Below are positions 2,051 to 18,660 of a DNA stretch of 20,261 nucleotides, piece after piece. Below the pieces are notes generated by a model that saw only the letters and a list, made by a program, of their open reading frames with translations, ran no database searches and was not told the DNA's origin. Location of the stretch: the IMG/VR virus record IMGVR_UViG_3300042518_001173, positions 1-20,261 of that record; one strand, written 5' to 3'. The position numbers and the translations under genes were made by a program. Origin of the DNA: a virus. Numbering within the stretch: the stretch's first letter is position 1; every line of letters begins with the position of its first letter.

Positions 2051-2356
2051 TCACCTATCCTCCATGCGGATCGAATCCGCCACTATCCGCTGCTTGTCGA
2101 TGCGGTCAAAGTAGACCACGAACACAATGTTCGAGCGTGCCCCGTGTCGTTCCTGCAAAATCGCGCCCAGCTGGGTGAGCATCCGCGCCGCCCGAAACGT
2201 GAACCGCGAAAACGCGACGCGTAGAAACGTCGTCGGCGGGTCCGCAGCCTCGAATTGATCGAGGAACACCTGGGCCGGCGCGTGCGTGTAGCCGGTGGGC
2301 CGGTATAGCGTGTCGCACGCGTCGCGAATCTGTTCAGCGGTGAGCCCGGCCAGCAT
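2051..2356 (-). CDS. Hypothetical protein, about 101 aa
   Basis: No family is recognised. I chose the ATG complementing 2354-2356 because GGAG sits six bases upstream; an ATG four codons earlier (2368) has a weaker site. The protein begins MLAGLTAEQIRDACDTLYRP and continues with alternating hydrophobic strands and helices (TFLRVAFSRFTFRAARMLTQLGAIL, then NIVFVVYF). It may be a compact alpha/beta protein. It is the first gene on the minus side of the divergent region and could belong to the same leftward transcript as the DUF551 gene. Confidence 0.6.
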   Translation of the reverse strand: MLAGLTAEQIRDACDTLYRPTGYTHAPAQVFLDQFEAADPPTTFLRVAFSRFTFRAARMLTQLGAILQERHGARSNIVFVVYFDRIDKQRIVADSIRMEDR

Positions 2357-2368
2357 CGTCGTCTCCAT

Positions 2369-2579
2369 GCTGTTTCCGCGGGAGTTTAGCGGTTTTCAAC
2401 GAATCTTCAATACCGGGCTTGGCGCGGTTCCAATGATCGTTTAGAACCTCCGCCCGTGACGACCACTTCGGCCGTCACCGCGACGCTCACGCGATCGCGA
2501 AAAGGATTCTGAAAGGCGAGGGACTGCCACATGCCACAACGCACGCAAAGCGTGGCGGCCCGTAACCACGGAGCACGCC
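2369..2579. promoter_or_regulatory. Divergent intergenic region
   Basis: This stretch separates leftward and rightward gene sets, so it should hold promoters for both. On the + strand TTGGCG (2419-2424), a 17-base spacer and TAGAAC (2442-2447) is a plausible but weak sigma70-like pair. Other signals are an inverted repeat GTGACG...CGTCAC in 2455-2480 and a small hairpin CACGC-AAA-GCGTG near 2542-2554. ACGGA at 2568-2572 is the Shine-Dalgarno of the next gene and also fits the CsrA core motif ANGGA. No start site can be fixed. Confidence 0.35.
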
Positions 2580-3236
2580 ATGCGAAACCGACTCGCGGAC
2601 TTTCTCACCAGATTCAAGGACGGGCCGCACGACGATCCGCAACTCGACGAACGGGCGGCAACGGAGTTTGCCCGATGGACGCCGCGGCAGCGGCGGCTCC
2701 GCAGACTGTTTGCACGGATGCAGCGCCGGAGGATTCGGCGAATGCTGCGGCTTTCGGCACCGTGCGCCACGGAGGGCGCGCGGGATGCTGAAACTACGGC
2801 GAAAAGTAGGGGAGCGGGTTGTCATTATCCCGCCGGACTCCGGACCCGTAACGGTGACTGTGATCCAAGTGACGGAGGGAACGGTGTGGATCGGGTTCCA
2901 GGCCGACGCCGATACGGCGATCCATCGGGAAGAAGTGTTGAGGCGGATCGAAGCCGCTCAACCGAAGCCCGCGCAGTAAGCCCGGTCGCCGCGGCATATC
3001 ACGACCGCCAGCCGGGCGACGCCGAAGCCGAGGCCGCAATCGCCGCCATGCAGGAACAAACATGGTTCCGCCGCGGCGACGTTGTGCGGTTCACCGACGC
3101 CGCCCGCGGGTTTCGCCTCGAAGCCGCCCGGGTGTGCAACGCGCTACCAGGCCGGCAACTACTCGTCGAAACGGTCGCGGGCCGGATGGAGCTCGTGATC
3201 GCCGAGTCTCACGTAATCGCGTGGGAGTGTGCATAA
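2580..3236 (+). CDS. Hypothetical basic protein; long frame enclosing csrA
   Basis: The ATG at 2580 has GGAG six bases upstream and opens a convincing coding stretch (MRNRLADFLTRF, then arginine-rich WTPRQRRLRRLFARM to about residue 60). The frame does not stop there. It runs through the out-of-frame csrA gene at 2785-2979 and rejoins a second coding-looking segment that ends at 3236. Either the 218-residue protein is real and csrA is nested in it, or two small genes happen to share a frame without an intervening stop. The middle part (about residues 70-130) reads like noncoding frame, which favours two separate genes. No family is recognised for the N-terminal part. Confidence 0.4.
   Translation: MRNRLADFLTRFKDGPHDDPQLDERAATEFARWTPRQRRLRRLFARMQRRRIRRMLRLSAPCATEGARDAETTAKSRGAGCHYPAGLRTRNGDCDPSDGGNGVDRVPGRRRYGDPSGRSVEADRSRSTEARAVSPVAAAYHDRQPGDAEAEAAIAAMQEQTWFRRGDVVRFTDAARGFRLEAARVCNALPGRQLLVETVAGRMELVIAESHVIAWECA
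2762..2787 (+). promoter_or_regulatory. Putative CsrA autoregulatory hairpin at csrA ribosome site
   Basis: A seven-pair stem (2762-2768 with 2775-2781, one G-U pair) closes the hexaloop ACGGAG at 2769-2774. The loop matches the CsrA/RsmA ANGGA recognition motif and contains the csrA Shine-Dalgarno. A second GGA overlaps the start codon (GGGATG, 2782-2787). In known CsrA systems such sites allow the protein to block its own ribosome binding. The structure is visible; the regulation is inferred. Confidence 0.6.
2785..2979 (+). CDS. csrA: CsrA-family RNA-binding translational regulator
   Basis: This is a small homodimeric RNA-binding protein that recognises GGA motifs in hairpin loops, usually over ribosome binding sites. 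The 64 residues begin MLKLRRKVGERVVI, continue with two strands (VTVTVIQV, VWIGFQA) and reach the signature IHREEVLRRI at residues 46-55. The N-terminal L4 and R6 and the R48 region correspond to the RNA-binding surface of the family. Length is typical (about 60-65). The start ATG has GGAGG upstream, inside an ACGGAG loop. A longer in-frame start at 2668 would add a low-complexity leader and is unlikely. As a phage gene it could retime phage or host translation, which is inference. Confidence 0.85.
   Translation: MLKLRRKVGERVVIIPPDSGPVTVTVIQVTEGTVWIGFQADADTAIHREEVLRRIEAAQPKPAQ
3048..3236 (+). CDS. Small hypothetical protein (SH3-like), 62 aa
   Basis: Beginning at ATG 3048 the frame encodes MQEQTWFRRGDVVRFTDA and several short beta strands up to ...SHVIAWECA. 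The pattern (RRGDVVRF, RQLLVETV, MELVIAESHVIAW) resembles small SH3-like barrels but no named family is recognised. The start is uncertain, since the only purine-rich site (GAGG at 3030-3033) is 14 bases away. The same frame is open upstream through csrA to 2580, so this may be the C-terminal end of that longer frame. Its stop TAA is followed at once by the next start codon. Confidence 0.45.
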   Translation: MQEQTWFRRGDVVRFTDAARGFRLEAARVCNALPGRQLLVETVAGRMELVIAESHVIAWECA

Positions 3237-3458
3237 ATGGCCGCCTACAAAAAACGCGGCCGGACGCCCGTCAAGCCGACCGACGTGCCAGTAATCGAGG
3301 CGGCGGTCGTCGCCCTGGTGCGGAGCATCGAAGACCTGTTCGAGCGGGAGACGTGGGTCGGCCCATGCACCTATCGCCAACACCCGACGCTCCGCGTTGT
3401 CGTTCGCGAACGTGCGGAGCGTGTCGCGCGTCTGTTCCTGAAACGGGGGCACAAATGA
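3237..3458 (+). CDS. Hypothetical protein, 73 aa
   Basis: The ATG at 3237 directly follows the upstream stop and has GGGAG nine bases before it. The product is basic at both ends (MAAYKKRGRTPVKP and VARLFLKRGHK). It has a central predicted helix (VIEAAVVALVRSIEDLFERE) and a possible second helix (LRVVVRERAERVARLFL). No family is recognised. Its stop overlaps the next start (ATGA), so the two are probably translationally coupled. Confidence 0.6.
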   Translation: MAAYKKRGRTPVKPTDVPVIEAAVVALVRSIEDLFERETWVGPCTYRQHPTLRVVVRERAERVARLFLKRGHK

Positions 3459-3568
3459 CGGCGACGGCCGCGGTGTGGTTCGTGCTCGGGTTCGCAACTG
3501 GAGTCGGAGTGGTATCCGCCGCGGTGGTCGCGGTGGGGTTCGGTGTGTGGATGAACACAAGAGGGTGA
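3455..3568 (+). CDS. Small single-pass membrane protein, 37 aa
   Basis: The ATG at 3455 overlaps the previous stop (ATGA). The product is almost entirely one hydrophobic segment (about residues 5-33, VWFVLGFATGVGVVSAAVVAVGFGVWM) rich in glycine, alanine and valine, with a short MNTRG tail. It should span the inner membrane once. Function is unknown; such tiny membrane proteins are common in phage early regions. It ends one base before the annealase start. Confidence 0.55.
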   Translation: MTATAAVWFVLGFATGVGVVSAAVVAVGFGVWMNTRG

Positions 3569-3569
3569 T

Positions 3570-4406
3570 ATGACGAGTGCCGAAACGACGATTGGAGTTC
3601 GGGAGCCGGCCAAACGATCGGTAGTGATGACGATCGCGGCGCGGTACGGGATGGAACCGGCCGCATTCGAGGCCACGGTTCGCGGTACATGCGGCCTGGC
3701 CGGTGCGACACGCGAGGAGTTTGCCGCGTTCGTGCTCGTCGCCAACGAGTACCGGCTCAACCCGCTGACCAGGGAAATCTATGCGTTTCCAAAAAAGGGT
3801 GGCGGCATTCAGCCAATCGTGTCTGTCGACGGATGGCTGAACCTTGCAAACAGCCACCCGCAGTTCGACGGGCTGGAAGTCGAGTTCGAGCACGACGACG
3901 CCGGGAAGCTCATCTCGGCGACGGCCCGCGTTCACCGGAAGGACCGGAGCCACCCGATCGTCGTGACGGAGTATCTGGCGGAATGCGTCCGATCGACCGA
4001 CCCGTGGAAGATGGCCCATCGGATGCTCCGCCACAAGGCGGCAATCCAGGGCATTCGATACGCGTTCGGCTTCTCCGGAATCATGGAGCCGGACGAGGCC
4101 GAATCCATCGCGGTGCGCGAGCCGGCCACGCCGGAGCCGCGCGCCGTGCAGCAGCTGCCGCCGCTGTCAGAAGCGGAGTACCAGCGGCTCATGCCTTCGT
4201 GGCGGACGGCGGTTGAATCGGGCCGGAAGGCCGCCGATGCCGTGCTCGCCATGGCCCACACCAAATGGGCGATCACGGATGGCCAAGCCGACGCACTCCT
4301 CGCGCTCGGGGCTACTGTCGCGCCGGACGGCGAGATCATCGACGCGGTGCGGGCGACCGTCGGCGACGCGTGGGAACCGCCGGTCGACACGGAAGGGGGC
4401 AACTGA
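3570..4406 (+). CDS. bet: Phage single-strand annealing protein (Bet/RecT family)
   Basis: The protein anneals complementary single strands during phage recombination, working on 3' tails made by the exonuclease encoded next door. The 278 residues contain the family core at about residues 60-90 (ANEYRLNPLTREIYAFPKKGGGI, then PIVSVDGWL), followed by SHPQFDGLEVEF, a basic AHRMLRHKAAIQGIRYAFGFSG segment and an acidic variable C-terminus. Length matches lambda Bet and RecT (about 260-270). The stop is two bases before the exonuclease start, the usual annealase-exonuclease pair. The choice between the Bet and RecT labels is not decisive from sequence; the RLNPLTREIYA motif favours Bet-like. Confidence 0.9.
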   Translation: MTSAETTIGVREPAKRSVVMTIAARYGMEPAAFEATVRGTCGLAGATREEFAAFVLVANEYRLNPLTREIYAFPKKGGGIQPIVSVDGWLNLANSHPQFDGLEVEFEHDDAGKLISATARVHRKDRSHPIVVTEYLAECVRSTDPWKMAHRMLRHKAAIQGIRYAFGFSGIMEPDEAESIAVREPATPEPRAVQQLPPLSEAEYQRLMPSWRTAVESGRKAADAVLAMAHTKWAITDGQADALLALGATVAPDGEIIDAVRATVGDAWEPPVDTEGGN

Positions 4407-18276: not shown

Positions 18277-18660
18277 GTGCCGACCGAAACGTGCCCCCAG
18301 GAATGCCCAACGTACAGCCGCCAGCCGGCATCCATGCCGCTGGCGTTCACCGTGGGCGACGACTTCCCGTTCCTGTTGCGATTCAATCGCAACCTGACGG
18401 GCTACACGCTCGCCGCGAGCATCACTTGCGTCGAAACGGGGGCCGCCGTGTGTTCGTTCACCATCGCCACCACGGGCGGCGACCTGGGGCTACAGACGAT
18501 CGCCGGTCAACAGTGGTTCCGCGTGCGGCTATCGCTCACGGAGCAGCAAACGGCCCTCGTCGTGCCGCCGCTGAACTACCGATGGTCGTTCCAGTGGACC
18601 GACACCGCAAACGACACCCGCACCATCTTTTCCGGCCGTGTCCGGGCCATGAGGCGCTGA
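18277..18660 (+). CDS. Hypothetical structural protein, 127 aa
   Basis: The start is GTG at 18277 with GGGAG seven bases upstream; an internal ATG exists at codon 20 (18334). After a cysteine-containing N-terminus (CPQECPTYS) the protein is all-beta (PLAFTVGDDFPFLLRFNRNLTGYTLAASITC, then WFRVRLSLTEQQTALVVPPLNYRWSFQWTD), similar in style to small immunoglobulin-like baseplate or head proteins. No family is firmly recognised. Position implies a virion or assembly role. Confidence 0.6.
   Translation: MPTETCPQECPTYSRQPASMPLAFTVGDDFPFLLRFNRNLTGYTLAASITCVETGAAVCSFTIATTGGDLGLQTIAGQQWFRVRLSLTEQQTALVVPPLNYRWSFQWTDTANDTRTIFSGRVRAMRR

Follow-up and report, generated by a model that had tools for sequence, protein, structure and literature searches.

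A phage-borne csrA gene whose conserved leader hairpin is a candidate for translational autoregulation

We analysed a viral DNA stretch of 20,261 nucleotides (the window) that carries a csrA gene with its Shine-Dalgarno sequence (SD) displayed in the loop of a leader hairpin. The encoded protein belongs to the CsrA family and keeps the family's RNA-binding residues, and the hairpin is conserved as RNA among its relatives. We propose, with a probability of roughly 0.6, that this CsrA-family protein of a temperate phage, probably one of planctomycetes, binds the hairpin of its own leader and thereby exerts negative feedback on its translation. Several lines of computed evidence agree on this reading: family, residues, fold, the ANGGAN hexaloop over the SD and hairpin conservation. 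The features discussed below are collected in Table 1.

Table 1. Features of the csrA region, in window coordinates
Feature	Position	Strand	Basis
Hairpin over the ORF N ribosome-binding site, GGAG in stem	2550..2586	+	Consensus fold, 11 leaders; no compensatory changes
N-X-C ORF, 218 aa (N ~2580-2784; X, the alternative frame of csrA; C 2979-3236)	2580..3236	+	Open in all relatives
csrA leader hairpin (apical 2760-2768/2775-2783, lower 2752-2759/2786-2793)	2752..2793	+	Fold, shuffles, pair counts and covariation in 11 leaders, low third-position variability in frame N
ACGGAG hexaloop, SD of csrA and ANGGAN-type candidate CsrA site	2769..2774	+	A, GGA and three closing pairs invariant
Second GGA overlapping the start codon	2783..2785	+	Direct reading; in 10/11 leaders
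csrA, 64 aa	2785..2979	+	PF02599, PHROG 9500; L4/R48 invariant; fold match 2mfc
recT, downstream gene, query for relatives	3570..4406	+	PF03837, PHROG 252

The csrA gene, its relatives and their host

The gene runs from ATG 2785 to TAA 2979 on the + strand and encodes a protein of 64 residues (MLKLRRKVGERVVIIPPDSGPVTVTVIQVTEGTVWIGFQADADTAIHREEVLRRIEAAQPKPAQ). A 64-residue CsrA had been proposed in the first-pass annotation, and both the reading frame and the family profile confirm it (PF02599, 52 bits against a curated cut-off of 27, E = 6.9e-14); the product also matches the phage CsrA family PHROG 9500. RNA binding in the CsrA/RsmA family requires residues L4 and R44. The window protein keeps both, as L4 and R48 (the latter aligning to R44 of E. 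coli), and both are invariant in the clade. L4, R6, G37, A40 and R48 remain invariant in an alignment extended by E. coli CsrA and three further viral CsrA proteins; E50 is nearly invariant in the CsrA alignment. The window protein is 52-63% identical to the other clade members, and some four additional residues (within IPPDSGP), inserted between the first strands, set the clade apart from E. coli CsrA. A profile of the clade retrieves RsmA, RsmE and CsrA structures. The best Foldseek match of the AlphaFold2 model (pLDDT 80, first strand unformed in the monomer model) is the complex of RsmE with RsmZ stem-loop 1 (2mfc, probability 1.00, E = 4.7e-4), and the comparison recovers the CsrA fold of beta strands and a C-terminal helix. 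The annotation had allowed for an inactive gene without RNA-binding residues; L4 and R48 are in place, and the modelled fold has RsmE as its best match.

We searched for relatives with the window RecT and retrieved 51 viral loci. csrA lies directly upstream in all 11 closest RecT loci (72-95% RecT identity); it is carried by 11 of the 49 RecT-bearing viral records searched and is missing from the 38 more distant ones. A scan with a CsrA alignment added one viral contig of 77 kb (L064) and, among genomes, a provirus (L078). Scanning viral contigs with the single CsrA protein gave no relatives, whereas the RecT and alignment scans succeeded. The 11 related viral contigs, L064 and L078 carry a module with the order ORF N, csrA, ORF C, recT, recE. 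L064 (record G051) bears two different csrA genes, at positions 18585 and 62138, the second (L097) with a GTG start and another leader type. Upstream of the module in the window, a DUF551 protein (PF04448) is encoded divergently at 1757-2368 on the minus strand, and the neighbour of its gene (2051-2368, minus) has a homologue at the matching place in L064.

L078 comes from a genome bin of the Planctomycetaceae; a tRNA-Arg gene lies at a distance of about 1 kb from its module, and the bin holds four other csrA genes. At least one member of the group is therefore a provirus, which supports the "phage or prophage" of the annotation. The phage group probably infects planctomycetes, and we infer a planctomycete host for the window virus itself. 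With certainty, the module is present in a single one of 392 sampled planctomycete genomes and a single one of 72 genomes from the bin's family; both are the same bin. CsrA-family matches reach 17 and 9 in the planctomycete genomes G099 and G075, while most genomes searched have none or one.

The leader hairpin and its conservation

In both the minimum free energy (MFE) and the centroid structure, the csrA SD falls inside the ACGGAG hexaloop, 10 nt from the AUG. The apical stem has nine contiguous pairs; beyond a two-base bulge, eight further pairs include the U and G of the start codon. The first-pass annotation had the SD in this hexaloop at the right coordinates, and only its stem of seven pairs gives way, to the nine obtained by folding. 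The region 2745-2815 has an MFE of -32.2 kcal/mol (z = -2.7), and 2 of 200 shuffles were equally stable. As a chance control, 4 of the 78 ANGGA sequences on the + strand stand on a stem of at least seven contiguous pairs. The loop has the properties of a CsrA-type ANGGA(N) site, with GGA unpaired in a loop of the preferred hexaloop size, and the predicted site overlaps the SD of csrA itself, as expected for an autoregulated csrA. A second GGA shares the A of the AUG, 12 nt from the loop site and thus within the 10-63 nt taken as the spacing for bridging by a dimer. The annotation had noted it over the start codon; this holds for the window and for 10 of the 11 leaders compared, but the motif is lost in the most distant relative, L078, which makes bridging of two sites doubtful.

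Alignment of 11 full leaders shows the hairpin in every one of them. The loop consensus is A(C/U)GGA(G/U), in which the first A and the GGA never change, N is C or U and the last base G or U; the three closing pairs do not vary either. Most relatives have four pairs, a mismatch at one inner position and four more pairs. In L078, an AUGGAU loop stands on GCC/GGC, followed by a 2x2 internal loop and by CCCGC/GCGGG in place of CCGG/CCGG. The lower stem, which includes the start codon, shows covariation: 7 cells are changed on both sides, versus 3.0 expected, and 2 of 500 shuffles reach this number; the shuffles take no account of kinship among the sequences. For the apical stem alone, covariation in the 11 leaders is no higher than in shuffles, because this stem is too invariant to make it visible.

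The strongest evidence for conservation comes from the overlapping reading frame, since the csrA leader sits within ORF N. Third-position diversity of ORF N is 0.089 in the hairpin codons versus 0.353 elsewhere (about fourfold lower, resampling P = 1e-4), and second positions vary in the hairpin codons, among them the N of ANGGA. In codons 30-58 of ORF N, second positions score 0.06-0.08 and third positions 0.35-0.37. Low third-position and variable second-position diversity in the hairpin imply that its sequence is held as nucleic acid; judged by codon positions, the hairpin is conserved at the nucleotide level beyond the needs of the overlapping frame.

A covariance model of the leader matches csrA leaders only (next match E = 0.12), and searching the module loci with it gave no further targets with similar hairpins. 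We also looked at csrA leaders elsewhere. Among 31 cellular planctomycete csrA leaders, one has an ANGGAN hexaloop with at least six pairs and three loop the SD GGA out on a hairpin of at least six pairs; a general csrA leader hairpin was not found in this set. We folded the leaders of ten known phage csrA genes; ANGGA is often present at the SD, yet none forms a hairpin with an ANGGAN hexaloop. Pairing of the upstream region with the csrA start codon was considered as a general feature and proved not to be general. In Vibrio phages (L104, L107, L110) and Pseudomonas phages (L109, L111), a CAGCA(U) upstream is able to pair with the AUGCUG at which csrA begins; such pairing would enclose the SD and is weakly above shuffles.

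The reading frame around csrA

ORF N begins at ATG 2580 and is the first ORF of the rightward gene run, with csrA second; the head of the operon, which the first-pass annotation had assigned to csrA, thus belongs to ORF N. In every relative the frame of N remains open up to csrA, across it and just beyond, ending with C at 218-222 aa in most of them (C is short in L078). Codon-position conservation in this N-X-C frame is found for N and C but not for X, and C is conserved from the csrA stop codon onward (DRQPGDAEA...RGDVV). Over the csrA stop, the N-X-C codon is ATG in L064, GTG in L005, L006 and L078, CTG in L004 and L008, and GTA in the window, L002, L003, L009, L010 and L011. Four relatives (L004, L008, L009, L010) have no in-frame ATG, GTG or TTG between the csrA start and the conserved C block. 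Lacking a usual start, C must either begin at an unusual codon or form the end of a continuous N-X-C protein.

Selection on X was rejected: csrA third positions vary freely (0.44), and the second frame shows no constraint inside csrA. The absence of stops in X is mildly unusual (P0 per sequence 0.07-0.83). T before AA, AG or GA occurs in 0 of 139 cases in csrA versus 67 of 428, and control genes behave similarly but more weakly (10/362 versus 116/1304); cellular planctomycete csrA genes may likewise be open in the X frame. That csrA is nested whole inside a longer gene N-X-C, translated across csrA in another frame, is therefore a tentative proposal to which we give somewhat less than even odds. 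If true, expression of CsrA would be built into translation of N-X-C, with ribosomes opening the csrA hairpin and CsrA closing it.

ORF N has a hairpin of its own over its ribosome-binding site, with an invariant GCGTGGC, and translation of the leading gene of the run may be under control as well. No sigma-70 promoter or terminator was found in 2300-3600.

Feedback, competing readings and known systems

The feedback we propose would work as follows. The folded csrA mRNA would display its SD in the ANGGAN hexaloop and hold the start codon in the lower stem. Accumulating CsrA, presumably as a dimer, would settle on the loop, cover the SD and stabilise the hairpin; ribosomes could then no longer initiate on csrA, and its synthesis would limit itself. 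Ribosomes translating ORF N would traverse the hairpin and might open it now and then; the amount of CsrA made would then depend on how much N is translated. Related systems offer published parallels: ANGGAN hexaloops are ligands of RsmE, CsrA of E. coli represses its own translation at leader sites of which one covers the SD, and RsmA stabilises the SD hairpin of psl (PMC7652899); in iraD, CsrA sites are combined with a translated upstream ORF (PMC5574718). CsrA SELEX ligands mostly have four or fewer contiguous pairs (PMC7652899), and the window stem, with nine, may consequently be too stable for a CsrA ligand.

This stability would suit a hairpin that serves translational coupling only, hiding the csrA start until ORF N ribosomes open it, with the loop GGA merely an SD and CsrA uninvolved. 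ORF N is a real gene by its codon-position pattern and runs through the hairpin, and there are known examples of SD hairpins that an upstream ORF opens, among them that of the CsrA-regulated iraD (PMC5574718). Against this, the conserved loop is exactly six bases long and reads A-N-GGA-N; its first A is invariant though an SD does not need it, while N varies as in CsrA ligands. Moreover, a coupling hairpin would more usually bury the SD in its stem, as at ORF N. We consider coupling alone unlikely, though it is the best of the alternatives.

Less probable still is that the loop is read by CsrA proteins of the host and not by the phage's own, so that phage csrA would be switched by the Csr state of the host, for example at induction. 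The four other csrA genes of the provirus bin and the 17 matches in one planctomycete genome fit such a reading, yet csrA was found in only 24 of 59 planctomycete genomes searched, so many possible hosts would have none; a site on the csrA gene itself favours feedback, and host binding would be compatible with self-binding. The third-position differences between the window and L002 are 0.10 for N and 0.15 for recT versus 0.64 for csrA (window 2785-2979, L002 4193-4393) and 0.47 for C, which suggests that a csrA-C cassette may have been exchanged between close phages downstream of a conserved leader hairpin. Such an exchange would fit a palindrome acting as DNA, either as an operator or as the recombination junction, but we regard this reading as very improbable: what is conserved, namely the loop, SD and start codon, matters at the RNA level, and the loop stays fixed while stem bases change in L078.

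Overall, we favour negative feedback by the phage CsrA on its own leader. Phage csrA genes and csrA autoregulation have each been published on their own. What is new here is the clade itself, the conservation of an ANGGAN hairpin on a phage csrA, the placement of this hairpin within a second reading frame and the location of csrA within a longer ORF that is open in every relative. A phage CsrA has been proposed to suppress host CRISPR-Cas (PMC8450108), and plaques were smaller when a phage csrA was knocked down (PMC11879866); in the literature searched we found no description of how phages adjust the amount of a global regulator of this sort. The single conserved hairpin is a small candidate switch in a little-studied phage group, and an RNA element maintained within an overlapping coding frame.

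Like other phage and plasmid csrA/rsmA genes (PMC7366521, PMC8450108; PTXU04 gp28 in PMC11879866), the gene is a phage-carried homologue that probably acts on host or phage mRNAs. Unlike the known phage csrA genes, it belongs to a separate clade; at E = 1e-3, the phage collection gave only a bacterial csrA of 40% identity as a match to the window protein. The RsmE-RNA complexes (PDB 2mfc, 2jpp) share the protein fold and have an ANGGAN hexaloop as ligand, but the RNA here is the leader of csrA itself and not a decoy sRNA or hcnA. iraD resembles the window in combining a CsrA site at the ribosome-binding site (here a predicted one) with an overlapping upstream ORF; its short ORF stops at the iraD start, whereas the ORF here spans all of csrA (PMC5574718). 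E. coli csrA likewise has a CsrA-type site over its SD (PMC7652899), and translational self-repression is what we predict here; instead of the four sites of E. coli, the window csrA has one strong ANGGAN hairpin, is phage-borne and has its leader inside an upstream coding region.
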